64,000 nt of DNA. Source: an uncultured Gemmatimonadales bacterium. GTDB taxonomy: Bacteria; Gemmatimonadota; Gemmatimonadetes; JACCXV01; JAHWKZ01. The notes below the pieces were generated by a model. The model was not told the DNA's origin. It made no database searches and worked only from the letters and a program-made list of their open reading frames with translations. Positions 3,738-62,715 of this stretch are shown here, in pieces (position 1 is the first letter of the stretch; each line of letters starts with the position of its first letter). Both the position numbers and the translations under genes were made by a program. The stretch lies in assembly GCA_947259315.1 (NCBI GenBank), contig CAMYLR010000004.1, forward strand, positions 45,406 through 109,405. Direction: 5' to 3'.

Positions 3738-3741
3738 GCTC

Positions 3742-7755: not shown

Positions 7756-8519
7756 ACTCAAAGCAAGCCCGGTGGTGGGTGGTTCTGGGGATCGCCAGCG
7801 CGATCGGTCTGGCTGCCAGTCCGGCACCCGATAGTGCGCGCGAACGAGTCATCATCCGGCTTGCAGACCCGGCCGGAGCGCGGGTCAGCCTGCTGGCGGA
7901 CGTTCGAAGAAGCGGTGTAACGCTCGACGTCCGCCATCAGCGAGCGATCGTTGGGCTCAAGGCGATTCACGCTCGCTCGGCCACCGCTGCCCGGCAACCG
8001 CTCGAGGAAGCGACACGCGCCGGTGCGTTGGTCGAGATCGATCGACTATGGATCATCAACGGTGTCGTCGCTGAAATAGACCCCGAATGGAGAGCGCGGC
8101 TCGAGGCCCACCCGACAATAGCCCAGGTCGTTCCCGATCGACGCCTGACCTTGGGTGGGGATTTCCGTTCCACACCAGTCGAAGCGGATCAGCTGTCCGT
8201 ACCGGAAGAGCAGCTCGAGCAGCTCAACGTACCTCAGGTTTGGGCTCAGGGAGTGACGGGCCGGGGTGCGATCGTGGCCAATGTCGATTCCGGGGTCAAC
8301 GGGGATGACGACACCTTTGGCGATCGTTGGCGTGGCCGCTTCGCCGGAAGCGATGCGGGCTGGCTCGCGCCGGTATCGCTTACCGTGTTCCCAGAGGACG
8401 ACTTCTCGATTGGGGCTGGCCACGGGACCTCGACGATGGGTCTGATAACCGGCGGCAACCAGACGTATGGGGTCGCGTTTGACGCCACGTGGATCGCCGG
8501 CGACGCCTTTCCAACGTGA
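7752..8519 (+). CDS. Secreted subtilisin-like (S8) protease, N-terminal part of a frameshifted gene
   Basis: Encodes a Sec signal peptide (about residues 1-28), an inhibitor-like propeptide (about 30-135) and the first half of the peptidase domain. Asp179 (VANVDSGVN) and His224 (GAGHGTS) of the catalytic triad are present. The frame ends prematurely at 8519 after GDAFPT, while the continuation NVIKIFEW sits in the -1 frame. One missing base near 8510-8516 explains the break: restoring it gives DAF-x-NVIKIFEW. The ATG start overlaps the stop of the previous gene. Together with 8489-10765 this is one gene of about 1,000 codons. Confidence 0.85.
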   Translation: MNSKQARWWVVLGIASAIGLAASPAPDSARERVIIRLADPAGARVSLLADVRRSGVTLDVRHQRAIVGLKAIHARSATAARQPLEEATRAGALVEIDRLWIINGVVAEIDPEWRARLEAHPTIAQVVPDRRLTLGGDFRSTPVEADQLSVPEEQLEQLNVPQVWAQGVTGRGAIVANVDSGVNGDDDTFGDRWRGRFAGSDAGWLAPVSLTVFPEDDFSIGAGHGTSTMGLITGGNQTYGVAFDATWIAGDAFPT

Positions 8520-10765
8520 TCAAGATCTTCGAGTGGTTGAGCGACCCTGACGGTGACCCGGCGACGCGAGGCGACGTGCCGGACGTCGTGAGCAACTCGT
8601 ACGGTTTGACGAACACGGACGATGCGGGGCAGCTGATCTGCGACACGATCTTCGACGACGCGCTCGACGCGCTCGAAGCGGCCGGGCCGATCGTCGTTTG
8701 GTCAGCCGGGAACCAGGGCCTGCAAGGGGTGACCTCGCCGGCGAGCCGAGCCGATTCGCGAGTCAACGCCTTCGCCGTGGGCTCCGTCGACGGCAACAAC
8801 GTCGTTGCGCAATCGTCCGGTCGGGGCCCGTCCTCGTGCGGTGGTTCGAATGCCACCAAGCCAGAAGTGGTGGCGCGAGGAGAGAGCGTCATAAGTCGCG
8901 GACTATTCAACGATTTTCGGACCGTCAGTGGAACATCGTTTTCAACCCCGATGGTTGCGGGCGTGCTGGCGTTAATGCGTTCGAAGGACCCCACCATCAC
9001 ACCCGAAGAAGCGAAGGGAATCCTGCTCGACACGGCGGTCGATCTTGGAGTTCCAGGCGACGACAACGACACCGGAGAGGGGCTCGTCGACGCACAAGCC
9101 GCGCTGGAAAGGGTCGAACGCCCGAATCAGCAACTCGTGCGCCTTGTCGGGTTCTCCGAGGCTACGAGCGGTGCCAAGCTCGGTCTGTCCGGGATCGAGG
9201 ATGCGCTCGTCCTCAACCCCGGCATGAGCGTGAGTCTGAACCCGGTTCTCACGAATCATGGCCTTTCCGTGCCGGCTACGACCGCAGTGCTCTCGAGCCC
9301 GACACCGGGGATCACGATCACTCGATCTTCGATCCCATTGACCCCGGCCGGCCCGGGTGGCGTGATCGAGCCGGCCGACAACTCGACGTTCGGGATCGAC
9401 GTGGGAACCGCGGTCGACCCGGGTTCGGACATCGTCCTGGACGTTGCGATCCAAGGGGCGCAGGTGGGCCCATTCCGGACGATCCTCAAGGCCGGAGATC
9501 CGGTGGAGGGGACGTTCGCGACGCACGATCGAGGTCAGGTTCGGTTGACGGTTACGAATTTCGGCGGGTTCGGCTTTTACACCGGAATTCACCAGGGTGG
9601 CTTCCTGCTGCGTGGTAATGGGTTCCGGTTCCCAGCAACAAGCGAGAATTGGCTCTTTCATGCCGGCCTAATGGTCGGTGTCGGTCCGAACCAGCTATCC
9701 GACGACGTCCCCTACGGCGAAGACACGCAAAACGCGACCGATTGGTTCCCGCTGGCTGGCTCACCGATGGTCGTCGATGAGGCCGCCGGAGGTCAACGCA
9801 TTACCGCGCGTTATGACGATCGGCACGCGTTGGCGCCTCTCGGTATCGACGTGCGTCAGGAGAGCTTTGCGTTCGCCGAGCAGGGCGAGGACACCTTTGT
9901 GTTGCTCCAGTTCGTCCTGACGAACACGTCATCACAGACGATAGGCGGTCTACGTGCCGGGCTCTTCGTCGACTGGGACCTGCCTGACGGGTTAGGTGGT
10001 GTCGCCGAAACGGTCGATTGGGACCCCTCGCGTCGGTTGGGTCTCGCCGCAGGGACGCAGGTCGGTCAGCCGGCGCTGGGCGTGGTCTGGCTCGACGATG
10101 CACCGCTAGCGCAACTCTCTTTTTCGGCGCTTACGCGCGCCGAGATCGTCAGCAGTACGGTCGGCAATCCGGGTACGGCGCTCGTACCAGCCGAGGCGCC
10201 GGATCTATTCAGTGGAGAGTTTTCGGACCAAGAAAAGTGGAATGCGCTTACGAGCGGACAAACCCAAACCAGCGTGACACAACCCCAGGACGCTTTTCAG
10301 ATCATCGGCCGCGGTCCGTTGACGCTGGGCGTGAGCGCTTCAGACACTGTAGCTGTGGCGCTGGTCGCCGGGGCCGATCGTCCGGCCCTTCAGGCCGCTG
10401 CGGAGGCTGCCCGTGAGGCGTACTTCAACCGCGTACTCGGCGTTCCACCACCGCCACCACCGCCACCACCTAGCGCGGTGGCGCTCGATCAGAACTTCCC
10501 GAACCCGTTCAGAATCGGCCAACAGACCACCATACCGTTTACCGTACCGGGGAATGGTAACGGCGCCCGGGTAGAGTTGATTGTCTACGATTTGTTGGGT
10601 CAGCGCGTGCGGACGCTCGTCGACGGCGACATTATCGCCGGGGAGCAAGCTGTTGCCTGGGACGGTCAGGCCGATTCGGGCGTATTCGTACCGGCCGGTG
10701 TTTACGTGGTGCGATTGGTTACTGGTGGCGCCGAGCGGACCATCCGCGTGCTCGTGGCTCGCTAG
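8489..10765 (+). CDS. Secreted subtilisin-like (S8) protease, C-terminal part with T9SS/FlgD-like sorting domain
   Basis: Continuation of the gene at 7752; genuine coding starts near 8510, so the nominal start at 8489 is artificial. The catalytic serine lies in SGTSFSTPMVAG and the oxyanion Asn in WSAGNQG, completing the triad. Beta-sandwich-like regions follow (about 230-640), then a PPPPPPPPP linker, then a C-terminal domain beginning LDQNFPNPF with VYDLLGQRVRTL and GVYVVRL. This is the FlgD-like/Por-secretion tail found on exported proteins of FCB-group bacteria. The protein is probably secreted or surface-attached. It is active only if the frameshift is an artefact or is bypassed. Confidence 0.88.
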   Translation: MDRRRRLSNVIKIFEWLSDPDGDPATRGDVPDVVSNSYGLTNTDDAGQLICDTIFDDALDALEAAGPIVVWSAGNQGLQGVTSPASRADSRVNAFAVGSVDGNNVVAQSSGRGPSSCGGSNATKPEVVARGESVISRGLFNDFRTVSGTSFSTPMVAGVLALMRSKDPTITPEEAKGILLDTAVDLGVPGDDNDTGEGLVDAQAALERVERPNQQLVRLVGFSEATSGAKLGLSGIEDALVLNPGMSVSLNPVLTNHGLSVPATTAVLSSPTPGITITRSSIPLTPAGPGGVIEPADNSTFGIDVGTAVDPGSDIVLDVAIQGAQVGPFRTILKAGDPVEGTFATHDRGQVRLTVTNFGGFGFYTGIHQGGFLLRGNGFRFPATSENWLFHAGLMVGVGPNQLSDDVPYGEDTQNATDWFPLAGSPMVVDEAAGGQRITARYDDRHALAPLGIDVRQESFAFAEQGEDTFVLLQFVLTNTSSQTIGGLRAGLFVDWDLPDGLGGVAETVDWDPSRRLGLAAGTQVGQPALGVVWLDDAPLAQLSFSALTRAEIVSSTVGNPGTALVPAEAPDLFSGEFSDQEKWNALTSGQTQTSVTQPQDAFQIIGRGPLTLGVSASDTVAVALVAGADRPALQAAAEAAREAYFNRVLGVPPPPPPPPPSAVALDQNFPNPFRIGQQTTIPFTVPGNGNGARVELIVYDLLGQRVRTLVDGDIIAGEQAVAWDGQADSGVFVPAGVYVVRLVTGGAERTIRVLVAR

Positions 10766-33403: not shown

Positions 33404-33994
33404 GTGTTCACCGGCATCATCGAGACAATCGGGGTAGTAACCACCATCGAGCCGTTGGGTCAGGGCCGCACGCTCGAGATCTCTGCTGAGTGGTCCGCTG
33501 ACCTCGAGATCGGCGAATCGGTGGCTGTCGATGGCACATGCCTGACGGCGGTGGGTCACACAGACGACACGTTTCGTGTCGAGGCCGTTCGCGAGACACT
33601 CGCGCGAACGATCATCGGTCAGTATGAGCTGGGCAGTCGCGTCAACCTCGAGCGGTCGCTGGTGCTCGGTGACCGCCTCGACGGGCACCTCGTTCAGGGC
33701 CACGTCGATGATATCGGCACGGTCGACTCGATTGAACGGCGTGAGGAGAACCGGTACATTTCTGTTTCGTTGCCGGAACAAGGGCGAGCGTTGGTCGCAA
33801 ATCGCGGGTCGATCGCGATCAATGGAGTAAGCCTCACGGTCCTGTCGGCGACCGATACCGGTGCCCGAGTGTCGATTGTGCCGCACACCTGGGTGGCAAC
33901 GAACTTTTCGGACCTCGCCGTCGGCCATCCGGTCAATGTCGAGTACGATGTGGTCGCCCGTTACGTTCAGCGCCTCATGGAGGCCCGAGAATGA
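33404..33994 (+). CDS. ribE: Riboflavin synthase alpha subunit RibE
   Basis: Dismutates two 6,7-dimethyl-8-ribityllumazine molecules to riboflavin. The 196-residue product begins MFTGIIE from GTG 33404, the invariant start of the family, and contains two internally homologous lumazine-binding repeats ([12 protein letters not shown] and [12 protein letters not shown]). A run of guanines just upstream (33391-33400) serves as ribosome-binding site. It overlaps ribBA by four bases. Confidence 0.94.
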
Positions 33995-34308
33995 TCCAGC
34001 CAGCGACGTTTACCCCGATCGAGGAAGCGCTCGAGGCGATCCGCCGGGGCGAGATTCTGATCGTTGTCGACGATGAGGATCGCGAGAACGAAGGCGACTT
34101 CATCATGGCGGCTGAACGGGTGACGGCGGAGACGGTCAACTTCATGGCGTGCGAAGGTCGCGGACTCATCTGTGCGCCGATCGCGGTGAGCCGAGCCGAC
34201 GAGCTCGGACAACGATCCGTGCGCTGGTCGATCGAACGACCGAGCCGAGCGATCTCGCTAGACCCGGGCACGTTTTTCCATTGCGCTCCAAGAATGGAGG
34301 CGTGCTGA
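33991..34308 (+). pseudogene. ribBA: RibBA, N-terminal (DHBP synthase) part, disrupted by internal deletion and frameshift
   Basis: Encodes the first about 72 residues of 3,4-dihydroxy-2-butanone-4-phosphate synthase: [28 protein letters not shown] and [13 protein letters not shown]. After RADELG the frame turns to nonsense and stops at 34308. The next recognisable sequence, TTIRALVD, lies in the -1 frame immediately after. Comparison with known RibB shows about 36 residues missing, including the TAFTVSVDA and GVTTGISAADR segments of the active site, so 3n+1 bases (roughly 110) were lost near 34206-34212. As written it cannot make active DHBP synthase. Confidence 0.85.
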
Positions 34309-35093
34309 GGCGCGCGGGCCATACCGAGGCGGCGGTCGATCTAGCGCGATTGGCCGGCCTGAGTCCGGTCGCGGTGTTGTGCGAGGTGATCGACGACGAC
34401 GGGACGATGGCGCGGCTCCCGCGACTTCTCGAGATCGCGCGCCAGCACCATCTCGGCATCATAACCATCGAGGACCTCATCAAGTATCGCGGGATCAAGG
34501 AGAAGATGATCGTCCGTATGGCCGAGACGATGCTGCCCACCGAGTTCGGGGAATTCCGATTGATCCTGTATGGCACAACGATCAACGACGAGCATCACGT
34601 AGCATTGATCAAAGGCGATGTGAAAGGCAGGGAGAACGTCCTCACGCGCGTCCATTCGTCGTGCTTTACTGGCGACGTGTTGGGCAGCCTGCGGTGCGAT
34701 TGCGGTCCCCAGCTCAATCAGGCGTTATTCCAAGTCGAACAAGAGGGGAGCGGAGTGGTCCTGTACATGCACCAGGAGGGTCGCGGCATCGGGCTCGTCA
34801 ACAAGCTAAAGGCGTACATGCTCCAGGATAAGGGTTTTGACACTGTGGAGGCGAACGAACACCTTGGCTTCCGACCCGATCCGCGCGACTACGGTATCGG
34901 ATGCCAGATCTTGGTCGATCTCGGACTGACCACGTTGCGGTTGCTGACCAACAACCCGCGGAAGCGCGCCGCGATCGAGGGCTACGGGCTCAAGATCAGC
35001 GAGCACGTTCCGATCGAGATCGAGCCCACCGCCCACAATCGCCGCTATCTAGAGACCAAGCGCGACAAGCTTGGCCACCTCCTTCGACACTGA
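34149..35093 (+). CDS. ribBA: RibBA, remaining DHBP synthase end plus intact GTP cyclohydrolase II
   Basis: Continuation of the gene at 33991; meaningful coding starts near 34207, so the nominal start at 34149 is artificial. Residues 40-115 hold the end of the RibB domain ([26 protein letters not shown]). The GTP cyclohydrolase II domain (about 120-314) is complete: zinc cysteines in [37 protein letters not shown] and LLTNNPRK. It could be made alone if an internal start is used. ribH follows 12 bases later. Confidence 0.88.
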
Positions 35094-40913: not shown

Positions 40914-41644
40914 CAGCCGACTATTACACCCGGTGGCTGGCCGACCCCGAGTATCGAGCATCGCGTCGCCAAAAAGCAGATCTTATTTACGCCATCAGCG
41001 AACCGTGGCTCGGACCGGCACAGACGGTCGTCGATCTTGGCGCTGGCACCGGACTGATACGAAAGCGACTGGAGGAGCTGGCCGGGCGGCCGATTATTGG
41101 ATTCGAGATCGATCTCGCGTTCGTCGAAGACCCGGAACGGATGGCAATCGCTGATCTGGAGCGATTACCGCTACGCGGTCAAAGCGTAGCGTTCGGGATC
41201 GCAAACCACGTCTACGAGCACGTCCGCGACTTGGACGCGCTCTTTGCTGAGCTTGCTCGGGTACTGACCCAAAATGGGCGCGCATACATGACAGCCGGCA
41301 ATCGATACGCCATTATGGAGCCCCATTACCGCGTCCCCACGTTGGCGTGGTGGCCCGAGTCAGTGGCGACGCGGATTCTGCGGTGGACTGGACGCGGAGA
41401 GCGTTACGCCGGTATCAACTTCACCACCCATCGTAGGCTCGTGGCTGCGGCCAATCGTCACGGCCTCGTACTCGACGATCTGACGGATCGAGTGCTCATG
41501 ACAGAGATCGATCGCTACATCAGTCGCACCGGCCGGCTGGTCGGGCGGTTGGCTCGTTCGTTCCCAACCGCACCGCGCCGGCGGGCACTCCAGCTGCTGT
41601 CGCCGCAATGGTTTTTCCTCATACGCCACGGAAACGTTTCATGA
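40910..41644 (+). CDS. SAM-dependent methyltransferase (class I), second in the glycan cluster
   Basis: A 244-residue methyltransferase with VVDLGAGTGLIRKRLEEL as motif I, MAIADLERLPLRGQSVAFGIANHVYEHV, and ALFAELARVLTQNGRAYMT. TTG 40910 is chosen because it overlaps the glycosyltransferase stop and begins TADYYTRWL, normal for the family. It overlaps the next gene's ATG. Substrate unknown. Confidence 0.8.
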   Translation: MTADYYTRWLADPEYRASRRQKADLIYAISEPWLGPAQTVVDLGAGTGLIRKRLEELAGRPIIGFEIDLAFVEDPERMAIADLERLPLRGQSVAFGIANHVYEHVRDLDALFAELARVLTQNGRAYMTAGNRYAIMEPHYRVPTLAWWPESVATRILRWTGRGERYAGINFTTHRRLVAAANRHGLVLDDLTDRVLMTEIDRYISRTGRLVGRLARSFPTAPRRRALQLLSPQWFFLIRHGNVS

Positions 41645-44600
41645 CAGCAGCCAAGAAGGGGAAGAAAAAGCAGCGCAACCGGCGCAGAAAAACTCAACCT
41701 CCTCCACCACCCCCTCGGACCATGCCATCGCGGCGCGTTTGGTGGCTCTTCTTGATCGGTCTGACGATCGCCGTGCTTATGTTCTTCGGGTCGTTTATCT
41801 CAGACCGAAACTCCGTCATGTTCGGCACGGATATGTTGTCTCAAGCGTATCAGAGCCGATCCTTTGCCGTTGAGCAGGTTCGGTCTGGTGACGGTTTGCC
41901 ACAGTGGAACCCGTTCGTATTCGGTGGATTGCCTTACCTGTCGACCCTGCCTTATCCGGTCTACTATCCGACGTCGCTCCTCTATTTTGCGATGCCGCTT
42001 CACCGCGCGATCGGTTGGGGGTTTGTCTTCCACGTGATCCTCGCCGGCGCGCTCATGTACGGGTTGGCTCGCGAGCTCAAGCTCGCGCCAGGGGCCGCGC
42101 TCGTCGCCGGCGTCGCGTATGGCTTCACCGGCTATCTCATGAGCCATCTATACGCCGGCCAGGACGGGCGGATGTTCGCCATGAGCTGGACCCCAGCACT
42201 GTTCCTGCTCGCCGAGCGCGCGATCGAACGGTGTCGCCCACACTGGTTTCTGTGGCTGGCCGCGGTCGTCGCACTGCAAGCGTTTACGCCACACGTCCAG
42301 ATGATGTACTTCGCAGCTATGGGTGTGACGGCGTACGTCGCGTTTCGGTTGGCTCAGCTCTATCGGGAAACGCGAGCCACGCGAACCGTAGCGCTTCTCG
42401 GCGCATCGTTCGCTGGCGCCTATGCGCTGGCCGGTTTGTTGGCGCTGGTCGAGATATGGCCGACCGCCAACATGCTGCAATTCTCGCATCGCGTTGACCG
42501 CGGCTACGAATACGCATCCTCGTGGTCGATGCCGGTGCAAGAGACGCTGGCCACGATTTGGCCCGCGTTCCAGGGGTATCTGCGCTCCTACTGGGGAACC
42601 AATCCGTTCAAGCTCCACACCGAGTACCTGGGTGCCGTCCCCGTACTACTGGCGCTGATTGCGCTGATCGGCCGGCGATCGGCTCGGGTATGGTTTTTCG
42701 CTGCGCTCGCTCTCGGGGGCCTTCTTTTTGCTTGGGGTGCGGCAACACCTGTCCACCGGGTCTTTTACTGGACGCTGCCGATCATGAAGTCGTTTCGCGC
42801 GCCGGCGATGATGTTTTCGGTTGTCGCGTTGTCGACTTGCGTTTTGGCTGGGTTTGGTGCGCAATGTCTTTACGATCGGCGAGACGAACTGGCCGATCCT
42901 CACCATACCGGGTGGAAGATCGTTGGCGGCCTGGGTCTCCTTTGGCTCGCCCTTTGGGCTTGGGCGGCCGCTGCACCCGATGGCTTCGCAAACCTGTGGA
43001 CGAGCCTTCTGTACGGCACGCGGTTCGACGCCCAGCGTACCCCTGAGGTCATGGAGGCGATGGGAGCGTTTGTCACCGGACTGGGTCTGTTCGCGGTGTT
43101 CTGGGCTGCCAGCGCAGCGATCTTTTGGCTGGCTGTCCGGCGGAAAATCGGGCCACTGATGGCGTGCGCGATCTTGGCCATGATCGCTCTGGCCGATCTG
43201 TGGCGCGTCGACCAGGACTTCTACGACACGTTGCCGATCGACCGTGTCACCAGTGCTGACCCGGCCGTCAATTACCTGCGGCAACAGCCCGAGCCGTTCC
43301 GGGTCTGGCCGTTACCGAACGCGTATGGCCCAAACGACCTCATGTTGTTCGAAGTCGAATCGGTCACCGGCTCACAGAACTTCCGGTTGTCCTGGTGGGA
43401 CGATCTGGTGGGCGAAGACCAATCAGGCCTAGCTGAGCCCGCGATCTGGTCATTGCTGAACATCCGGTACGTGATTTCAGGACCCGCTGTGCAGGCGGCT
43501 GGCTTCGACCTCGTTCATCAGGACGAGGGCCGCCATGTCTACGCCAGGCAAGCGGCGTCGCCACGTGCCTGGGTGGTTCACGACGTGGAGTCGGTCAGTG
43601 CCGCATCTGATGCACGGGCGAGGTTGCTTGACCCCAGCTTTGACCCACTACGGACGGCGATCGTAATGAACGACGTGAACCTTCCCGCGTTGGGTCCAGC
43701 CGAACCCGGATCGGGTTCGGTCGATTGGGTCACACGTGACACCGATCAGCTGATCCTCGACGCGGAGATGGGGGCCGATGGCTTGCTCGTCATGAGCGAG
43801 ATCTATCACCCGTACTGGCGAGCCACGATCGACGGCGAGCCGACAGCGGTGCTTCAAGTCGACATCGCGCTACGAGCTGTCGCCGTTCCGGCCGGCTCCC
43901 ACCGGATCGAGATGCAGTTCGACGATCCAGTCGGCCCACTGAGGCCCGCAGACGGCCCAGCGAGCGATCACCGACGGCTGGCCTGGGCCGAGCGGGTCGG
44001 GGCGGCAGCCGTACTCGTCGCTTTGGCCTGGTACGTCGCTCGCCACTGGAACCAGGTCGAGGCGTACGCATGGTCTTTTCGTTGGCCCCGATTGTTGTTG
44101 GGCTCCCTTTGCGTCGTCATCTCCTACAGTCTGTTCGTGGTATTGTGGCGCCAGCTCTTGCACGCGCTCGGCGGTCGCTTGGCGTTCGTCGATGCTCACC
44201 GGATCTGGTACTTCGGCAATCTCGCCCGGTACATACCCGGTAAGGTGTTTCAGCTCGCTGGGACGGCGTATCTCGCGCGCGCTAAGGGTGTTCCTGGATC
44301 GACCACAGTCGCAGCCAGCGTGCTGGCGCAAGCGTTCGTTGTCGGCAGTGCAGTGATCGTGGCCGTCGCGACGCTGGGTGGCGGCTCGCTACCCGGGCCG
44401 GCGTGGCTGCCATTGGTTGTCCTGGTCGGCCTGGCGGCCCTCGTCTTCACGCCGCTATTCGAGACTTTCCAAGCCACCCTGATGCGTTGGCGGCCCGACA
44501 CGTTCTCTGGGGTCGATTCGATCGGGATGCGCCAACGCGGGTTGCTTGCCGCCAGCTACATCATCGCCTGGGTCTCCTTTGGCACCGGATTCTACCTCTT

Positions 44601-44898
44601 TCTATCGGGTCTCACAGCGGTAGCAGTTGAGGATTTTTGGCCACTCGTGGGCGTCAGCGCAGCTGGCTACGCGGCCGGGTGGCTGGCGGTCTTCGCACCG
44701 GGTGGCATCGGTGTGCGCGAAGGCGTATACGCGCTTCTCTTGGCCCGGTTTCTACCACCGTCAGCGGCGGCTGCAGCCGCGATCCTGTCGCGCTTGTGGT
44801 TGACCGCGGTCGAAGTCGCCGTCGCGGCCGTGCTGGCCACCGCTTTCGGGTACCGAGACCTCTCCTCGGCCACCACCAACAGCGATCCCAAGAAGTGA
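41641..44898 (+). CDS. Giant membrane protein: YfhO-like region fused to a UPF0104/LPG-synthase-TM region
   Basis: 1,085 residues. After a Lys-rich and Pro-rich cytoplasmic start (KKGKKKQRNRRRK, PPPPPP), residues about 30-770 resemble YfhO-type multi-helix membrane proteins of the GT-C kind, with the loop FGTDMLSQAYQSRSF and the extracytoplasmic YHPYWRATIDGE domain. From about 790 to 1080 the sequence is that of UPF0104/AglD-like flippase-related proteins (GNLARYIPGKVFQLAG, FAPGGIGVREGVYA). These are usually separate proteins. The YfhO part lacks its final helix before the junction near residue 770, so this is either a true fusion or an in-frame loss between two adjacent genes. Confidence 0.8.
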   Translation: MTAAKKGKKKQRNRRRKTQPPPPPPRTMPSRRVWWLFLIGLTIAVLMFFGSFISDRNSVMFGTDMLSQAYQSRSFAVEQVRSGDGLPQWNPFVFGGLPYLSTLPYPVYYPTSLLYFAMPLHRAIGWGFVFHVILAGALMYGLARELKLAPGAALVAGVAYGFTGYLMSHLYAGQDGRMFAMSWTPALFLLAERAIERCRPHWFLWLAAVVALQAFTPHVQMMYFAAMGVTAYVAFRLAQLYRETRATRTVALLGASFAGAYALAGLLALVEIWPTANMLQFSHRVDRGYEYASSWSMPVQETLATIWPAFQGYLRSYWGTNPFKLHTEYLGAVPVLLALIALIGRRSARVWFFAALALGGLLFAWGAATPVHRVFYWTLPIMKSFRAPAMMFSVVALSTCVLAGFGAQCLYDRRDELADPHHTGWKIVGGLGLLWLALWAWAAAAPDGFANLWTSLLYGTRFDAQRTPEVMEAMGAFVTGLGLFAVFWAASAAIFWLAVRRKIGPLMACAILAMIALADLWRVDQDFYDTLPIDRVTSADPAVNYLRQQPEPFRVWPLPNAYGPNDLMLFEVESVTGSQNFRLSWWDDLVGEDQSGLAEPAIWSLLNIRYVISGPAVQAAGFDLVHQDEGRHVYARQAASPRAWVVHDVESVSAASDARARLLDPSFDPLRTAIVMNDVNLPALGPAEPGSGSVDWVTRDTDQLILDAEMGADGLLVMSEIYHPYWRATIDGEPTAVLQVDIALRAVAVPAGSHRIEMQFDDPVGPLRPADGPASDHRRLAWAERVGAAAVLVALAWYVARHWNQVEAYAWSFRWPRLLLGSLCVVISYSLFVVLWRQLLHALGGRLAFVDAHRIWYFGNLARYIPGKVFQLAGTAYLARAKGVPGSTTVAASVLAQAFVVGSAVIVAVATLGGGSLPGPAWLPLVVLVGLAALVFTPLFETFQATLMRWRPDTFSGVDSIGMRQRGLLAASYIIAWVSFGTGFYLFLSGLTAVAVEDFWPLVGVSAAGYAAGWLAVFAPGGIGVREGVYALLLARFLPPSAAAAAAILSRLWLTAVEVAVAAVLATAFGYRDLSSATTNSDPKK

Positions 44899-47874: not shown

Positions 47875-50355
47875 ATGACCGAGCATCGTTATGACCCCCA
47901 CGCCATCGAGCCCAAGTGGCGTGCCGAGTGGGAAGCGAAAGATCTGTTCCGGGCCGACCTCGAGGCCGCCACGGACCCTTGCTACGCGCTGGTCATGTTC
48001 GCCTACCCGTCCGGCGATCGACTCCACGTCGGCCACTGGTACCACTACGGGCCAGCCGACACGTGGGCCCGGTTTCAGCGCATGCGTGGGCGATCGGTCT
48101 TCGAGCCCTTTGGGTTCGATGCATTCGGTCTACCAGCCGAGAACTATGCCGTGCGGACCGGAATCCACCCCAAAGACTCGACCGATCGCAACGTCGCCAC
48201 GATGATCGAGCAGCTCAAGACGATGGGCGCAATGTGGGACTGGGAACGCACGCTAAACACCAGCGAGCCGGCGTACTACAAGTGGACCCAGTGGCTTTTT
48301 CTCGAGCTCTATCGGACCGGGCTGGCGTACCGGCAAGCCGCGCCCGTTTGGTGGTGCCCGACCGACCAAACCGTGCTTGCAAACGAGCAAGTCGTCGAAG
48401 GCAACGTCTGCGAACGTTGTGGCTCTGACGTCGAGAAGCGGGATCTCACCCAATGGTTCTTCAAGATCACGGACTACGCCGACGAGTTGCTGGACGGACT
48501 CGACGAGGTCGACTGGCCGGAGAGAACAAAGACGCTTCAACGCAACTGGATCGGGCGGTCGACTGGGGTCGAGATCGATTGGCAAGTGACTGACCGAGAG
48601 GCGACGATCAAGACGTTTACTACGCGGCCGGACACGCTCTATGGCGTCACGTTCCTCGCATTGGCACCGGAGCACGATGCGTTGGACGACATCATGAGCG
48701 ATGCGCATCGAGCCAAAGTCGACGCTTACCGCGAGCGGGCCCGGCGACTCTCGGAGATCGAGCGTACATCAACCGAGGCCGAAAAAACGGGCGAGTTCAC
48801 CGGCGCCTACGCTATCCACCCCTTGACGGGGAAACAGGTGCCGATTTGGGTTGCGGACTTTGTGCTCGCTGGGTACGGAACCGGAGCGATTCAGGGTGTC
48901 CCCGCACACGACGAGCGCGACTTCGATTTCGTCCGGGCGATGGATCTGCCGGTCGTCTGGGTGATCGAACCCGAGTCCACCGATCACGGACGCGACCAAG
49001 CCTATACCGGCCACGGTCGGGTGATCGCATCGGGTCCTTACAGCGGCATGCGATCAGAGGAGATGCTCGAACAGGTCACGGCGGATCTGGTCGCCAAAGG
49101 AGACGCGAAAGCGACCGTCCACTACCGCATTCGCGATTGGCTCATATCGAGGCAACGCTATTGGGGAGCGCCGATCCCGATCGTCCACTGCTCAGCCTGT
49201 GGGGAGGTTCCGGTGGGGGTCGAAGACCTGCCGGTAGAGCTACCGTACGATGTCGATTTCTCGTTGGGCGCCGGTAAGAGCCCGCTCGAGCGTTCGGAGT
49301 CGTTCATGAACGTGGCCTGCCCCAGCTGCGGCGCTGAGGCGCACCGCGACCCCGACACGATGGACACATTCGTCGACTCAGCATGGTATTTCCTGCGGTA
49401 TTTGTCACCTGACGACGACGAGCGGCCATGGAATCGAGAGCTGGTCGATCGGTGGTGCCCGATCTACCAGTACTCAGGCGGGATCGAGCACGCGGTCCTG
49501 CACCTGTTGTACGCTCGATTCATGGTCAAGGCGATGCGGGACCTGGGACACCTCGGGATAAGCGAGCCTTTTCAACGGCTCGTTCATCAAGGCACGATCA
49601 CCAACCGCGGGACGAAAATGTCCAAGTCCCGCGACAACGTGATCAGCCCCGACGACTACATCGATGAGTACGGCGCCGACGCTTTCCGTACCTACCTGAT
49701 GTTCGGTTTCGCGTTCACCGAGGGTGGCGACTGGAAAGACGAGGGGATCAAGGCTGTCGCCGCTTGGCTGCAGCGGGTGTGGCGACTGGTCGACCGGCAT
49801 CGGGACCTGTGGGGTAAAGACGCTGGCGGCGACCACGAACCCACAGACTCGGACGCAGCACGAGCGCTGCGCCTCGTTCTGCACCGATCGGTGAAGGGAG
49901 CGACCGAGGATCTCGCCAGCTGGCAGTTCAACACCGCCATCGCACGGATCATGGAGCTCGTCAACGAGTGTTACCAATACGCACCGGTCGAAGAAACAGG
50001 TGAACCTGAGGATCCGTCGCTCATGCGCACGGCGATCGAAACGGTGATCCGACTCCTCGCACCCATCGCGCCCCACCTCAGCGAAGAGCTGTGGGTCATG
50101 ACCGGTCAGCAGCCACCGCTGATCGACGCTGGATGGCCCGACTACGATCCCGAGATCCTGCGCACCGACGAGGTGACGATCGTGATTCAGGTCAATGGGA
50201 AGGTGCGCGACGAGATGCGTGTCCCACGCGACTTGCCGGATCAAGAGGTCGAGGCCCGAGCCCTGGCCCATGGTCGGATCCCGGAGCTCCTCGACGGTCA
50301 ACAGGTTCGGAAGGTGATCGTCGTTCCGAACAAACTGGTGAGCTTGGTCGTCTAA
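47875..50355 (+). CDS. leuS: Leucyl-tRNA synthetase
   Basis: Class Ia synthetase charging tRNA-Leu. The 826-residue protein contains YPSGDRLHVGHWYHY (HIGH motif), FEPFGFDAFGLPAENYA, the editing domain (TTRPDTLYGVTFLALAPEH, GTGAIQGVPAHDERDF), TMDTFVDSAWYFLRYLSP, and the KMSKS loop NRGTKMSKSRDNVISPDDYI. The anticodon-binding and C-terminal domains (VIQVNGKVRDEMRVP) are present. An attenuator-like hairpin lies just upstream. Confidence 0.96.
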   Translation: MTEHRYDPHAIEPKWRAEWEAKDLFRADLEAATDPCYALVMFAYPSGDRLHVGHWYHYGPADTWARFQRMRGRSVFEPFGFDAFGLPAENYAVRTGIHPKDSTDRNVATMIEQLKTMGAMWDWERTLNTSEPAYYKWTQWLFLELYRTGLAYRQAAPVWWCPTDQTVLANEQVVEGNVCERCGSDVEKRDLTQWFFKITDYADELLDGLDEVDWPERTKTLQRNWIGRSTGVEIDWQVTDREATIKTFTTRPDTLYGVTFLALAPEHDALDDIMSDAHRAKVDAYRERARRLSEIERTSTEAEKTGEFTGAYAIHPLTGKQVPIWVADFVLAGYGTGAIQGVPAHDERDFDFVRAMDLPVVWVIEPESTDHGRDQAYTGHGRVIASGPYSGMRSEEMLEQVTADLVAKGDAKATVHYRIRDWLISRQRYWGAPIPIVHCSACGEVPVGVEDLPVELPYDVDFSLGAGKSPLERSESFMNVACPSCGAEAHRDPDTMDTFVDSAWYFLRYLSPDDDERPWNRELVDRWCPIYQYSGGIEHAVLHLLYARFMVKAMRDLGHLGISEPFQRLVHQGTITNRGTKMSKSRDNVISPDDYIDEYGADAFRTYLMFGFAFTEGGDWKDEGIKAVAAWLQRVWRLVDRHRDLWGKDAGGDHEPTDSDAARALRLVLHRSVKGATEDLASWQFNTAIARIMELVNECYQYAPVEETGEPEDPSLMRTAIETVIRLLAPIAPHLSEELWVMTGQQPPLIDAGWPDYDPEILRTDEVTIVIQVNGKVRDEMRVPRDLPDQEVEARALAHGRIPELLDGQQVRKVIVVPNKLVSLVV

Positions 50356-51153: not shown

Positions 51154-51810
51154 ATGGTGACCACTACACTCGCGCCGCGTGTTCTCGCGGTCCGGAAAAT
51201 CCCGAACATCGCGCCGTCGCTGGTCGATGCGCTGGGGTTGCGGCCCTCACACGCCGCGATCGGGTTCCTCACCGTAGATCAGGACGATCCCACATATGTG
51301 GCGGTCGACGACGCGACCAAGAAGGCCGAAGTCGACGTCGTCTTCACGCGCACCTTCTACCGCGATTCAGCGCGCTCGATCTTGGGGTCACCCGCCGCCG
51401 AGACCTTGGTAATAATCGCTGGAGATCGCCTCGGGGAAGTCGAAGCCGGAATGGATGCTACGCTGACTTACCTCGAGTCGCGTATCAGCTATCGTTCGGC
51501 TGACGACGAAGGGCGTTCTCCATACCTGGCGCACCTCGTCGCTCAGACCGGCAGTTATCTGTCGGAGCGAGCCGGAATCGAACGCGGCCAGGCGCTGGGG
51601 TACCTAAAGGCGACGCCGCTTGAGGCGGTCTTCGGGCTTGACCAGGCGCTCAAAGCCGCCGACGTACAGGTGGGGGAGTGGATCGAGCCGCCGACACCGA
51701 CCAACATGGGCGGTGCCCTGGTGACCGGCACCGAGGCCGACTGCCGCGCAGCGTGCGAGGCCTTTGAAGCCGCCGTCAAGTCCGTCTGCGCCGACCCGGT
51801 ACGGTACTGA
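51154..51810 (+). CDS. BMC-T shell protein, EutL-like
   Basis: A 218-residue tandem-BMC shell protein forming pseudohexameric trimers. It matches EutL along its length: RVLAVRKIPNIAPSLVDALGL, GFLTVDQDDPTYVAVDDATKKA, FTRTFYRDSARS, LVAQTGSYLSERAGI, PLEAVFGLDQALKAADV and PPTPTNMGGALVTG. EutL pores are gated in crystal structures and are thought to pass larger cofactors. First gene of the operon; the BMC-H gene starts 2 bases after its stop. Only EutL-type trimers are seen here; no PduB- or CcmO-like protein is present. Confidence 0.92.
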   Translation: MVTTTLAPRVLAVRKIPNIAPSLVDALGLRPSHAAIGFLTVDQDDPTYVAVDDATKKAEVDVVFTRTFYRDSARSILGSPAAETLVIIAGDRLGEVEAGMDATLTYLESRISYRSADDEGRSPYLAHLVAQTGSYLSERAGIERGQALGYLKATPLEAVFGLDQALKAADVQVGEWIEPPTPTNMGGALVTGTEADCRAACEAFEAAVKSVCADPVRY

Positions 51811-51812
51811 AG

Positions 51813-52409
51813 ATGGCTGGAAACGCCCTCGGCCTGATCGAGACCCTCGGTTTTGTGGGCGCCACCGAGGCCACCGATGCGATGGCGAAGGCCGCCCCGG
51901 TCGAGTTTCTGAAGCGTGAGTATGCAAACGGTGGCCTGGTCACGATCCTCGTGCGTGGCGACGTGGCCGCGGTCAAGGCCGCGACCGATGCCGGTGCGGT
52001 GGCCGCCGCAAAGGTCGGTGAGCTCGTCGCCGTCCACGTCATACCGCGACCGCATCAAGGAACCGACCAACTGATCGACGTCCTGCCAGAGAACTACTCC
52101 TTATCGCCGTCCTATCCGATCGGGCAACGGTCCAAACCGAGTGCGGAACCGCCAACGCCTCCCAAACCGACTGTCGCTCCGACAACCGAAGTCACGACGA
52201 AGCCCGCCGCCCAACCGGTATCGGTTACCGACCTCCAAGCGCGATGCCTGACGGCGATACGGCGTGCTGGGGAGCAGGGCATATCGCTGCCTGAGCTCGG
52301 GACAGCGCTCGGGACGGAGTGGCGCAGACTGATCGGCCCAGTCAAGCAGCTGCTCGATCGTGGCACCATCGAAAAGGTCGAGAGCCGCTACTACCCGGCT
52401 AACGAGTGA
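51813..52409 (+). CDS. BMC-H shell protein with C-terminal winged-helix extension (EutK-like)
   Basis: A 198-residue protein in three parts. Residues 1-90 are a Pfam00936 BMC domain ([45 protein letters not shown]). A Pro/Thr-rich linker spans about 105-137. Residues 138-198 look like a winged helix-turn-helix (LTAIRRAGEQGISLPELGTAL, then IGPVKQLLDRGTIEKVESRYY). The domain order is that of E. coli EutK, whose C-terminal domain has a nucleic-acid-binding fold. It may display the extension inside the shell. The following ParA gene overlaps its stop. Confidence 0.88.
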   Translation: MAGNALGLIETLGFVGATEATDAMAKAAPVEFLKREYANGGLVTILVRGDVAAVKAATDAGAVAAAKVGELVAVHVIPRPHQGTDQLIDVLPENYSLSPSYPIGQRSKPSAEPPTPPKPTVAPTTEVTTKPAAQPVSVTDLQARCLTAIRRAGEQGISLPELGTALGTEWRRLIGPVKQLLDRGTIEKVESRYYPANE

Positions 52410-53221
52410 TGCGGCAACCGTACGCGCTCGTGTTTGCCAACGCGAAGGGCGGGGTAGGGAAGACCACGTCGGCGGTCCACGTCGCCGGCGCGTTCGCCGA
52501 AACCGGCATCGAGACGGTGCTCATTGACCTTGATCCTCAAGCTTCGGCAACCCGTCACCTAGGGGTCGATCCCGACGACCTGGAAGTCACCGTCACCGAT
52601 GTATTGATCGATCCGGCCGGAGGACTCGCGCGCGCAACGGTGCCGACGCGCTACGAGCGGCTGTTCTGCGTTCCGGCCCACGAGAGCCTGGGCCAGATGG
52701 AATCCGAGCTGGCCAACGTCCCGGGCCGCGAGGAGCTCCTGTCGGACGCCTGGGACGCCGGGCCGGAGCTACCGTACCGCATGGCGATCATCGATGTCCC
52801 GCCGGCGCTGTCGCTCTACACCGTGAACGCGTTGCGGCTGGCCGACACGGTCCTGATTCCGGTCCAGACGCACCCGTTCGCGCTCAATGCAGTACCCCGC
52901 ACCCTCGACCTCATCGACAAGGTTCGACGGCGACTCAACCCGCGGCTGGATCTCTTGGGTTACTTGGCCACGCTTTACGATCGCCGCACGCGCGTCGGTC
53001 GCGAATGCCTGGCGACGATGGAAGACACGTGGGGAGAGCTCCTGTTCCGAGAACCGATTCCGATCAACATCGCGCTCGCCGAAGCGGCCCGCGAAGGAAG
53101 GTTGCTGTTCGAGGTCGACGCCAACTCCACCGGTGCGGCCGCTTATTACAGTGTGGCCGCCGAGATCGCTGAACGATTGGCCGCCCGGCGTGATGAGGCG
53201 GTCGTGAAACAGGCGTCGTGA
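52406..53221 (+). CDS. ParA/MinD-family ATPase encoded within the microcompartment operon (McdA-like candidate)
   Basis: A 271-residue deviant Walker-A ATPase: FANAKGGVGKTTSAVH (signature Lys present), Walker A-prime DLDPQASATRHLG, and Walker B MAIIDVPPALS. No N-terminal helix-turn-helix, so it is of the short, cargo-positioning ParA/Soj type. GTG 52406 (or ATG 52409) overlaps the BMC-H stop and the next gene overlaps its end, so it is an integral operon member. By analogy with McdA, which spaces carboxysomes over the nucleoid, it may distribute this compartment; that role is inferred. Confidence 0.88.
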   Translation: MMRQPYALVFANAKGGVGKTTSAVHVAGAFAETGIETVLIDLDPQASATRHLGVDPDDLEVTVTDVLIDPAGGLARATVPTRYERLFCVPAHESLGQMESELANVPGREELLSDAWDAGPELPYRMAIIDVPPALSLYTVNALRLADTVLIPVQTHPFALNAVPRTLDLIDKVRRRLNPRLDLLGYLATLYDRRTRVGRECLATMEDTWGELLFREPIPINIALAEAAREGRLLFEVDANSTGAAAYYSVAAEIAERLAARRDEAVVKQAS

Positions 53222-53541
53222 CTGTGCGCGGACGCGGCAACCGGCCCATCGTCTCCGCCGATGACGTGCGCGCGGTGCACCGCGACGGGAGCTTTCAACT
53301 GCTCGTCCCCGAGCATGCGATCATCACACCGCTGGCCAGGGAAGAGGCTGACCGCTACGGAATCGAGCTCGTCAAGAGGGGCGACACCCCAAACCCGCCG
53401 GCCACTGATCGTCACATCCCAACCTGCGACCCGAGCGATGTGGAGCGGGTCGTCGAACGAGTCCGTGGTCTAGTGCCGGAAGCGGATGCGACGCAAGTAC
53501 GTCAGATCGTGGAGCGCGTCCTAACACGTTGGGGTCGGTGA
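53218..53541 (+). CDS. Small BMC-operon protein with EutQ-like N-terminus; possible ParA partner
   Basis: A 107-residue protein I cannot assign firmly. Residues about 8-50 ([32 protein letters not shown]) resemble the short N-terminal segment found in EutQ and some BMC-associated cobalamin enzymes. After a Pro-rich hinge, two amphipathic helices end the protein ([25 protein letters not shown]), resembling encapsulation peptides. A tryptophan lies three residues from the end; a near-C-terminal Trp is a reported hallmark of McdB, the partner of McdA. GTG overlaps the ParA stop; pta overlaps its end. Confidence 0.75.
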
Positions 53542-54551
53542 ACCCTTCACAACTGATCGCCGATTTGAGAAGCCGAGCGGCGGCCGAGAAACATCGTGTC
53601 GTGCTCGCCGATGGTGCGGACCCGCGGGCGGTGCAAGCTGCCCAGGTGATTCGCGAGCTTAACATCGCCGACGTCACACTGCTGGGTGGCGGTTACGCCA
53701 TCCGCGAGGCCGCTGAGAAGGCCGGCGTTGGCCTCGAGGGCGTCGAAGTCATCGCGCCGGCGCAATCGCCACGGCTCGATACCTATGCCGAAGGGTTTCG
53801 CGCCCTACAAGCGAGCCGCGACCGCGAGCTGAGCGTGGATGAAGCGCGGACGGCGCTCGAGGATCCGCTGGTGTTTGGCGCTTATCTCGTTCAGCGCGGT
53901 GAGGCCGATGGTTGCGTGGCGGGCAACCTGTCAACGACCGCCGAAACGGTTCGGGCCGCGATCCGCGTTATCGGGCCCGCGAGTGGGATCCGCACGGTCT
54001 CGTCGGTCTTCCTCCTTATCGGCGATCAGGGCGCGTTCACCTTTGGTGACTGCGGTGTCGTTCCTGAACCAACATCCAACCAGTTAGCCGACATCGCGAT
54101 CGCGTCGGCGGCAACCCACCGAGCCCTGGTCCGAGAGGAGCCCAAGGTCGCGCTGCTGTCGTTCTCAACCAAGGGGAGCGCCTCTCATCCCAAGGTCGAT
54201 CTGGTGGTTGAGGCGGTCGGAATCGCGCGTTCTCGCCGACCGGGACTCATCGTGGATGGGGAGCTGCAGGTCGATGCGGCCATCGTTTCTGAGGTGGCTC
54301 GCTCGAAGGCGCCCGACAGCCCCGTGGAGGGACGCGCCAACGTCCTCGTCTTTCCCGACTTGAATAGCGGCAACATCGGTTATAAACTGGCACAGCGATT
54401 GGCGGGCATGATTGCGCTCGGACCGTTGCTCCAAGGACTGGCGGCTCCGATGCACGATCTCTCACGAGGCGCTTCGGTCGACGATATCGTCAACGTCACC
54501 GCGATCGCCTGCCTGCAAGCGATTGAACGCGAGCCGTCCGGCCGTCGCTGA
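53538..54551 (+). CDS. Phosphate acyltransferase (phosphotransacetylase, EutD/Pta type)
   Basis: A 337-residue PTA_PTB-family enzyme interconverting acyl-CoA and acyl phosphate. Motifs: [79 protein letters not shown] and [18 protein letters not shown]. In metabolosomes this step recycles CoA from the aldehyde dehydrogenase product. It is the Pta/EutD fold rather than PduL. GTG 53538 overlaps the upstream stop; no N-terminal encapsulation helix is evident, as the conserved fold begins at once. Confidence 0.92.
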
Positions 54552-54630: not shown

Positions 54631-54909
54631 ATGGTGGAAGCACTGGGGATGATCGAGACGCGCGGCTTGGTCGCTCTTATCGAGGCGTCGGATGCCATGG
54701 TCAAAGCGGCGCGTGTCAAACTCGTCGGCTACGAGAAGATCGGTGCCGGCTACGTGACCGCTTTGGTGCGTGGGGACGTGGCCGCTTGCCAGGCCGCTGT
54801 CGATGCCGGCGCGGCCGCCGCCAAGAAGGTCGGCGAGGTCGTCTCGGTACACGTCATCCCGCGGCCGCACTCGGACTTGGACGCGCATTTCCCAATTACG
54901 ACCAGCTAG
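54631..54909 (+). CDS. Canonical BMC-H hexamer shell protein
   Basis: A 92-residue single BMC domain of PduA/EutM type: [48 protein letters not shown] and [10 protein letters not shown]. Probably the main facet protein. An extended GGAGGAGG (from 54617) precedes the ATG, one of the strongest ribosome-binding sites in the window, consistent with high expression. The 79-base gap upstream contains a GC-rich inverted repeat (GGCGCGC/GCGCGCC near 54565-54582) that could act as a processing or attenuation hairpin and so set stoichiometry. Confidence 0.94.
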
Positions 54910-54953: not shown

Positions 54954-56210
54954 GTGCCGCTCACCGAGAGCGAAATCCGTGCTATCGTAGATCGGATCAC
55001 CGGCGAGCTTGGAAGCGGCTCGACCCCGGCGGTCGAGGTCGCCGAACGCCAACCGGCGCCTTCAACGTTACCCAGCCCAACACCCACCAGTTCGTTGGGC
55101 ATCTTCGCTACCGTAGATGAAGCTGTCGAAGCGGCGCATCGCGCACAGGCCGAGATCCGCACGCTCGAGCTGCGTGACAAGATCATCGCCAACCAACGCC
55201 GCCGGCTGACCGAGCAGGCCCGATCGCTAGCCGAGCAAGCGGTCACCGAGACCGGGCTCGGAAACGTCGAGAGCAAGGTCCTCAAGAACCAGCTTGTGAT
55301 CGATCGCACCCCGGGCACCGAGGACCTGTCACCCGAGATACTGTCAGGTGACCACGGTCTGACGCTGACCGAGCTGGCGCCATGGGGCGTCATCGGCGCG
55401 GTCACGCCGTCGACCAATCCGGCGGCCACGATCATCAACAACGGGATCTCGATGATCGCCGCCGGAAACGGTGTCGTGTTTGGTGCCCACCCCCAAGCCA
55501 AAGGCGTCACCAACCGGACGATCCACCTGATGAACGCAGCGGCAGTCGAGGTGGGGGGGCCAAAGACCCTCCTCACAGCGGTCGCCGAGCCGTCGATCGA
55601 AGCCGCACAAAAACTCTTTCACCACCGTGGGATCGACCTGCTGGTCGTCACCGGCGGGGGAGCCGTCGTTCGGGCGGCCCAGAAGTCGACCAAGCGAGTC
55701 ATTGCGGCCGGGCCCGGCAATCCACCGGTGGTCGTCGACGCGAGCGCCGATCTTGCTCGCGCCGCAGCCGACATCGTGGCCGGCGCATCGTTCGACAACA
55801 ACGTCGTCTGCACGTGTGAAAAGGAGATTCTGGCCGAGGCGCCGATCGCCGACGAGCTACTCGAGGAGCTACAACAGAACGAAGCTGTGCTGCTGACACC
55901 GGACGAAGCCGAAGCTCTGGCGCGAGCGATGTTAAACGATTACCCCGGCCCCGAGCCGCGGATGAACAAGGAGTACGTCGGCAAGGACCCCGCGGTCTTG
56001 GCGGAGTTGATCGACAAGCGGGTCCCAGCAGGGACCAAGCTGCTGTTAGCCGAGACCGATCGTCATCACCCGTTCGCCGTGCTGGAGCTGCTGACCCCTG
56101 TTTTGCCGCTCATCCGCTGTCCCGACGTCGATACGGCTATCGACTGGGCGGTCGAGCTCGAGCACGGTTCAAGGTGCTCGATCACCTGCATCGCATGGCG
56201 GTCGAGATGA
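54954..56210 (+). CDS. CoA-acylating aldehyde dehydrogenase (PduP/EutE type), main part, truncated by deletion/frameshift
   Basis: Oxidises an aldehyde to acyl-CoA with NAD+ inside the compartment. Residues 1-20 (PLTESEIRAIVDRITGEL) form an amphipathic encapsulation-type helix, followed by a Pro-rich linker. Catalytic Cys286 lies in FDNNVVCTCEKE; WGVIGAVTPSTNPAATIINNGISMIAAGN is diagnostic. After AVELEHG the frame is lost and ends at 56210. Compared with PduP/EutE about 8 residues (the RHTA-x-MH segment) plus the frame are missing, a loss of about 25 bases near 56167. The remaining C-terminus is at 56174-56380. GTG start at 54954. Confidence 0.88.
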   Translation: MPLTESEIRAIVDRITGELGSGSTPAVEVAERQPAPSTLPSPTPTSSLGIFATVDEAVEAAHRAQAEIRTLELRDKIIANQRRRLTEQARSLAEQAVTETGLGNVESKVLKNQLVIDRTPGTEDLSPEILSGDHGLTLTELAPWGVIGAVTPSTNPAATIINNGISMIAAGNGVVFGAHPQAKGVTNRTIHLMNAAAVEVGGPKTLLTAVAEPSIEAAQKLFHHRGIDLLVVTGGGAVVRAAQKSTKRVIAAGPGNPPVVVDASADLARAAADIVAGASFDNNVVCTCEKEILAEAPIADELLEELQQNEAVLLTPDEAEALARAMLNDYPGPEPRMNKEYVGKDPAVLAELIDKRVPAGTKLLLAETDRHHPFAVLELLTPVLPLIRCPDVDTAIDWAVELEHGSRCSITCIAWRSR

Positions 56211-56380
56211 ACTGCTCGATCTTCGTCAAAAACGGACCCAACCTGGCGGGATTGGGCTTTGGCGGTGAGGGGCCGACCGCGATGACGATCTCGACACCGA
56301 CCGGTGAAGGACCAACGTCGGCTCGGACATTCGTCCGCCGTCGGCGTTGTACGCTCGTCGACTACTTCCGGATCGTCTGA
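56174..56380 (+). pseudogene. C-terminal remainder of the acylating aldehyde dehydrogenase
   Basis: Continuation of the preceding gene in the -1 frame: LDHLHRMAVEMNCSIFVKNGPNLAGLGFGGEG, then TPTGEGPTSARTF and RRRRCTLVDYFRIV, the normal end of PduP/EutE proteins. It is not an independent gene; the GTG at 56174 is artificial and no ribosome-binding site is seen. It stops 12 bases from the convergent moeB-type gene. Confidence 0.85.
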
Positions 56381-62178: not shown

Positions 62179-62715
62179 TCATTCGTAGGCCACCAGACTT
62201 AGATAGTCGCAACCATCGAGCTTATCGCGACCCTGGAGAAACTCCAACTCGATCACAAAGCCCAGGCCACAGATGTTGCCCCCCGCCGCTCTAACGAGAC
62301 TAATCGCCGCCTCGGTCGTTCCACCCGTCGCCAGTAGATCATCGATCACCACGACGTTCTCGCCCTCAGCGATCGCGTCGGTGTGGAGCTCGAGCGTGCT
62401 GGTTCCGTACTCGAGGGCGTACGACTCGCGGTGAGTGTCATACGGGAGCTTGCCTTCTTTGCGAACGACCACGAGCCCGACCCCGAGTCGATTCGCCACC
62501 GGCGCTGCAAACAGAAACCCGCGCGCATCGACGCCGATGATCTTATGCGCGTCTCGGGCTTTGGCGAACCGAGTGAACGCTTCGATCGATTCCTCGAACA
62601 GCGCCGGATCGAGCAAAATCGGCGTAATGTCCTTGAACTGAATGCCCGTTTGTGGAAAATCGGGGATGTTCCGAATCGCGCTCTTTAGCCGCTTCTCCAG
62701 ACTCTCGTCTCGCAC
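62179..62715 (-). CDS. apt: Adenine phosphoribosyltransferase
   Basis: Purine salvage: adenine plus PRPP to AMP. The 178-residue protein contains IRNIPDFPQTGIQFKDITPIL, GVDARGFLFAAPVA, VVVRKEGKLPYDT and the PRPP loop VVVIDDLLATGGTTEAA. Length and motifs are standard. It is 18 bases downstream of the M23 peptidase gene on the same strand. Confidence 0.95.
   Translation of the reverse strand: MRDESLEKRLKSAIRNIPDFPQTGIQFKDITPILLDPALFEESIEAFTRFAKARDAHKIIGVDARGFLFAAPVANRLGVGLVVVRKEGKLPYDTHRESYALEYGTSTLELHTDAIAEGENVVVIDDLLATGGTTEAAISLVRAAGGNICGLGFVIELEFLQGRDKLDGCDYLSLVAYE

Follow-up and report, generated by a model that had tools for sequence, protein, structure and literature searches.

The aldehyde dehydrogenase gene of the window, i.e., the whole 64,000-nucleotide stretch of DNA that was analyzed here, lacks 25 bases and is broken across two reading frames. 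The sequence analyzed does contain this gap; with respect to the organism it is probably an artefact, and a real, recent deletion constitutes the main rival explanation, although an unlikely one. Breaks of this sort are not confined to the compartment genes: private, clean losses that change the frame also affect a subtilase gene, ribBA and a joined gene pair elsewhere in the window. An error of assembly or consensus fits better than gene decay, since five recent losses are seen without decay, one of them in a core vitamin gene. Based on these sequence comparisons, the 25-base gap is likely to be an error of the draft, arising where the assembly or consensus of contig C4 is locally at fault. 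The dehydrogenase is probably whole in the cell, and we infer that the reads would contain the missing bases.

The break in the aldehyde dehydrogenase gene

The gene encodes a BMC-type acylating aldehyde dehydrogenase and is the last of the operon features listed in Table 1. The frame that starts at 54954 ends its proper reading at AVELEHG (GGT, 56166–56168) and runs on into a foreign tail that is closed by a stop codon at 56208–56210, while the continuation, KVLDHLHRMAVEMNCSIFVKNG...VDYFRIV, is open in the -1 frame at 56171–56380. The gene was compared codon by codon with L005 and L006, two family-level relatives from Gemmatimonadetes drafts. Instead of the 27 bases expected to separate the G codon from the K/R codon, the window has 2, which corresponds to a loss of 25 bases; the residues lost from the dehydrogenase read FKHTACMHS in the relatives. 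The NF011927 model (465 positions) matches in two pieces, the first covering positions 4–390 (485.4 bits, which alone clears the curated cut-off of 403 bits) and the second positions 399–465 (100.4 bits). Positions 391–398 are unmatched and positions 399–465 are found in the other frame, thus the C-terminal part of the catalytic domain is not complete in one frame, and the two matches confine the gap to the break. The join is clean, and the bases on either side of it can be read without ambiguity. The sequence-only reading had described a frame running to AVELEHG, with its continuation in the -1 frame, and a deletion of about 25 bases; the translation together with the two NF011927 pieces bears out the former, and the comparison with L005 and L006 agrees with the latter.

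Apart from the gap, the gene has the features of its family. The sequence NNVVCTCEKE aligns with the Cys-bearing NN..C..EKE region of solved relatives (NNLPCIAEKE in 4c3s; the 5dbv entry has A at the Cys place), and we take the Cys of this region to be catalytic. The enzyme domain is preceded by an N-terminal stretch that, judged by eye, looks helical and resembles an encapsulation peptide. The gene product resembles EutE/PduP-type dehydrogenases (NF011927; 4c3s, 5dbv, 5jfl) in that it matches the model save for the gap, keeps NN..C..EKE and has an N-terminal extension, and it differs from them, as read, in the absence of 25 bases and in the shift of its final 69 residues to another frame.

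Table 1. Features of the compartment operon and of the gap sites, with positions in the window
Feature	Position	Strand	Basis or remark
53 bases absent between two divergent genes	3738..3741	.	gene calls overlap here
Subtilase-family gene, 22 bases absent at ~8510, frame change, split into two frames	7779..10762	+	
ribBA, sole copy in genome, 109 bases absent at ~34207-34209 (RibB domain core), frame change	33991..35090	+	
YfhO-like gene joined in frame to LPG-synthase-like gene by 83-base loss at ~43929	41608..44898	+	
EutL-type trimeric shell protein, two BMC domains	51154..51810	+	NF011934 242 bits, cut-off 198; PF00936, two stretches
BMC-H shell protein with C-terminal extension	51813..52409	+	PF00936; EutM/EutK-type matches below cut-off
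ParA-family ATPase	52406..53221	+	PF13614; 71% identical in G004
Small protein with weak similarity to the EutQ N-terminal part	53218..53541	+	PRK15457 5e-9, below cut-off
Pta-type phosphate acetyltransferase	53529..54551	+	PF01515; TIGR00651 over cut-off
EutM-type BMC-H shell protein	54631..54909	+	NF012018 154.6 bits, cut-off 133; 95% identical to G004
BMC-type acylating aldehyde dehydrogenase, whole extent	54954-56380	+	
Dehydrogenase, N-terminal part, original frame	54954..56168	+	NF011927 positions 4-390, 485.4 bits; translation; L006 alignment with PDB 4c3s/5dbv
Dehydrogenase, junction, 25 bases absent relative to relatives	56168..56171	+	codon comparison with L005, L006; 41/41 spanning loci
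Dehydrogenase, out-of-frame tail past break: 13 foreign residues, then TGA	56169..56210	+	
Dehydrogenase, C-terminal part, -1 frame, 69 residues + stop	56171..56380	+	NF011927 399-465; 64/69 residues identical to L005 and to L006

The dehydrogenase in relatives

The site of the break was examined in 49 loci (L005–L053), seven of which (L047–L053) belong to other aldehyde dehydrogenase families and were excluded. Among the 42 BMC-type loci (L005–L046), the FKHTACMHS segment is kept in all 41 that span the site, with L040 left uncounted since its contig ends before the site, and with L033, one of the counted loci, containing a stop within its aligned stretch. A check against relatives had been proposed from the sequence alone, along with the observation that about 8 conserved residues are absent; every spanning locus retains the segment, and it is the FKHTACMHS region that is gone from the window. 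A programmed frameshift or other recoding at the join could be considered, as both frames are conserved and directly adjacent. Recoding would restore the frame but not the ~8 conserved residues that the 41 spanning relatives keep, and the relatives do without it, which makes this explanation exceedingly improbable.

Before the break, the dehydrogenase is 79–81% identical to L006 and L005, and past the break 64 of its 69 residues match L005, and likewise L006. With L007 as the outgroup, lineage-specific changes in the window and in L006 number 18 vs 17 before the break and 2 vs 2 after it. Neither second damage nor relaxed constraint was found in the dehydrogenase in the comparison with L005, L006, and the outgroup L007. 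Intact copies of the gene are present in relatives.

The broken gene could also be a dispensable leftover if an intact second copy existed elsewhere, and the genome does contain three other aldehyde dehydrogenase genes. These are just 28–30% identical to the broken one, however, and no second copy was detected in the genome by a DNA search with the C-terminal part, which matches only this locus. As the genome of the window is 95.8% complete, a missed copy is possible but unlikely, and we regard the explanation by a second copy as very improbable.

The dehydrogenase and BMC-H were not found in two further drafts, namely G001, a same-genus draft about 80% identical to the genome of the window, and G002, which is 55% complete. 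The contigs of G001 stop at window position 49082 and resume at 62618, and the operon falls in between; the dehydrogenase is therefore not comparable with G001. Loss of the operon in the genus was considered and rejected for G001, whose contig ends flank the operon, so that the absence there is uninformative.

Other gaps in the window

Taken alone, the dehydrogenase fits both of the causes that the sequence-only reading had offered, i.e., recent decay and assembly error, and it is the other gaps in the window that tip the balance toward assembly error. They also alter the scope of that reading, since the 25-base gap itself stands, but not as an isolated event: the window has several gaps of this sort.

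In total, 37.4 kb of the window could be aligned with G001, and this alignment contains 34 indels. Four of them are large gaps, and in each it is the window that lacks the bases, namely 53 at 3738, 22 at 8510, 109 at 34209 and 83 at 43929. Apart from the large gaps, the coding indels comprise 8 bases or fewer, and these smaller indels are multiples of three or belong to two close frame-restoring pairs, with the exception of a single base beside the 53-base gap. The 53-base gap was not counted as coding, given that the gene calls overlap there, though the indel listing marks it as coding. The flanks of the large gaps match G001 well, and their joins share 0–1 bases when inspected by eye. No secondary damage was seen at these four gaps. 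In G001, the 53-base stretch that is missing at ~3738 has promoter-like sequence, as judged by eye. A difference of the opposite direction was observed in the intergenic region at ~1726–1760, where the window has 28 bases (16 + 12, in two pieces) that G001 lacks.

The telling case is ribBA, where the RibB domain has lost 37 or nearly 37 codons of its core. In the broken gene the two ends of the Pfam DHBP_synthase model are matched as separate pieces, and the half for GTP cyclohydrolase II is intact. The gene is intact at the gap site in G001 and in the family-level relative G004, and the orthologues neighboring ribBA are whole. As the genome has no other ribBA, the RibB half of an early step in vitamin B2 synthesis would go while the neighboring genes are whole; if RibB were truly lost, the cell would need riboflavin from outside, which is possible. 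A fault of the draft is the simpler explanation for a single window with five private losses and no decay. As for the fusion near 43929, the 83 missing bases hold, in G001, the end and the stop of the YfhO-like gene, and the YfhO-like and LPG-synthase-like genes are separate in G004.

A real and very recent deletion, through which the strain or the majority allele has lost the dehydrogenase, is a rather unlikely explanation. Such a deletion would leave an N-terminal product without the last part of the catalytic domain, which would be inactive, and acetaldehyde would not be passed on by the compartment. The clean, unambiguous join is consistent with a deletion of this kind, and so is an imperfect TTCAAG/TCCAAG repeat, 24 bases apart, which is found in close relatives and could favor slippage near this size. 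Four more gaps of like kind elsewhere in the window, including that in the only ribBA and none with secondary damage that we could see, argue against it, as independent losses would differ in age and some should show decay. Slippage, moreover, leaves the set unexplained, with the other joins sharing 0–1 bases (by eye).

Two candidates for a common cause of the gaps were rejected. Short direct-repeat slippage was dismissed on the grounds that, next to the TTCAAG/TCCAAG pair of the relatives at the dehydrogenase site, the other four joins share 0–1 bases by eye. An inverted repeat with arms of 8 bases encloses the dehydrogenase join in its loop, and arms at least this long occur at 2.9% of 3000 random positions; the arms at the ribBA and subtilase joins measure 6 and 5 bases, and 29% of random positions reach 6. 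A hairpin as the common cause was rejected on the short arms at the latter two joins, three joins having been compared.

If the losses were nevertheless real, at least five blunt deletions of 22–109 bases would have arisen in quick succession within ~53 kb, which would amount to a localized deletion-mutagenesis process. We consider such a process quite improbable, and to our knowledge no counterpart of this kind has been described. It would have knocked out the dehydrogenase, the RibB half and the subtilase, and fused two membrane-protein genes, with none of this in the sampled rest of the genome.

Surveys of orthologues beyond the window

Orthologues were surveyed over the sampled parts of two genomes, 974 kb of G000, the genome of the window, and 956 kb of G004. 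The gene calls for the surveys came from a codon-usage script and not from a standard gene finder, and top matches below 45% identity (below 50% in one survey) were left out. When G004 genes were compared with G000, 3 of 272 comparisons were split with a frame change, and these were the dehydrogenase, ribBA, and the subtilase-family gene, all in the window. Split orthologues thus account for 3 of 51 in the window vs 0 of 221 elsewhere. The reverse survey yielded a single split among 262 comparisons, which is the window's own fusion of the YfhO-like and LPG-synthase-like genes. The crowding statistic for 3/51 vs 0/221 is ~0.006, a value calculated by hand, after the fact, and including the dehydrogenase site that was given beforehand; without the dehydrogenase site it is ~0.03, again after the fact.

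On contig C4 elsewhere, 0 splits were detected in 39 orthologues, which is a thin sample. In-frame gaps of at least 4 residues in conserved surroundings were also recorded, and the forward survey counted 3 as missing in C4 and 1 as extra, a result that the reverse survey mirrored; in-frame losses elsewhere were rejected as a signal, their counts being ordinary. For contig C6, 16.8 kb compared with G001 gave net differences of 0, +3, and -6 bases. The fault seems to be local to the stretch or the contig. What speaks against a draft error is that a general error rate does not explain the crowding in one window, and a local cause would be needed. Among viral contigs, there were 19 pattern matches and 0 relatives. 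Outside the window, a 13-kb region of contig C4 (124623–137589) shows a net difference of -40 bases vs G001, a figure that is not split into single indels.

In uncurated metagenome drafts, local assembly errors are described as giving rise to incorrect genes (PMC7111523). The window is similar to the cases outlined in that source in that individual sites of a draft genome carry faulty gene sequences, and differs from them in that the errors there were identified by reads and here are proposed from sequence comparison; the relevant passages of that source do not describe a pattern of clustered gaps. The present case guards against concluding from one draft genome that a metabolic capacity, be it the compartment or vitamin B2 synthesis, has been lost. 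A simple check, before a function is declared lost, is to weigh a private gap in one gene against others in its neighborhood.

The operon and its satellite loci

The dehydrogenase follows genes for shell proteins, a ParA-family ATPase and a Pta-type phosphate acetyltransferase (Table 1). Three PF00936 shell genes are present in the window, and the four PF00936 matches in the genome all fall within these three. No redox enzyme other than the dehydrogenase was found among the operon genes, in keeping with the earlier description of the dehydrogenase as the only visible redox enzyme of the compartment. The remainder of the operon had been described as intact and conserved, and it is indeed whole otherwise and kept in a relative, G004, with an extra peptidase-like gene inside. 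McdA-like proteins have a role in compartment positioning, and the ParA-family ATPase at 52406–53221 may possibly position compartments here.

Vertex protein genes are located outside the operon, with three PF03319 matches on contigs C6 (one) and C19 (two) and none in the operon itself. On C19 (L077, 8739–10260), a deoxyribose-phosphate aldolase with an N-terminal extension, assigned to its family by matches to TIGR00126 and PF01791, adjoins two BMC-P genes. The same arrangement of aldolase and BMC-P genes exists in G001 (L078) and, with more BMC-P matches, in G002 (L079). A third BMC-P gene, on C6 (L076, 9608–10290), lies beside an open frame with cytidine-deaminase-like motifs, which from these motifs we take to be a cytidine deaminase; the same pair is found in G004 (L094). 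The main operon and the BMC-P genes at two places make up three separate loci, and the operon probably belongs to a fragmented metabolosome. The C19 aldolase is the probable source of the aldehyde. It would release acetaldehyde from deoxyribose 5-phosphate, the dehydrogenase, inside the shell, would convert acetaldehyde to acetyl-CoA, and the operon's phosphate acetyltransferase would then form acetyl phosphate and free CoA.

Three published systems are counterparts of these loci. FRAG metabolosomes are reported from Gemmatimonadetes among others (PMC8217296), and the loci described here resemble them in the scattered shell genes, the three BMC-P genes and a dehydrogenase near shell genes. The HO type I satellite locus is outlined in the same source as two BMC-P genes with an aldolase (PMC8217296). 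It is similar to the C19 locus, where two BMC-P genes adjoin a DeoC-family aldolase with an N-terminal extension, and unlike it in that no BMC-T-dp was identified here and the main operon has a EutL-type trimer. The SPU (sugar phosphate utilization) metabolosome is likewise reported from Gemmatimonadetes (PMC4207490; PMC8217296). It has in common with the present loci a DeoC-family aldolase together with an acylating aldehyde dehydrogenase, whereas the aldolase here lies on another contig and the acyltransferase is of the Pta type, not PduL (PMC4207490). The loci are candidates for the SPU, HO type I satellite or FRAG type. The operon together with the probable aldolase on the other contig provides a useful example of what is probably a fragmented metabolosome. 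As a minor observation on gene order, a prolyl-oligopeptidase-like gene, recognized by eye, separates the phosphate acetyltransferase gene from the BMC-H gene in the operon of L006 (3913–5508).
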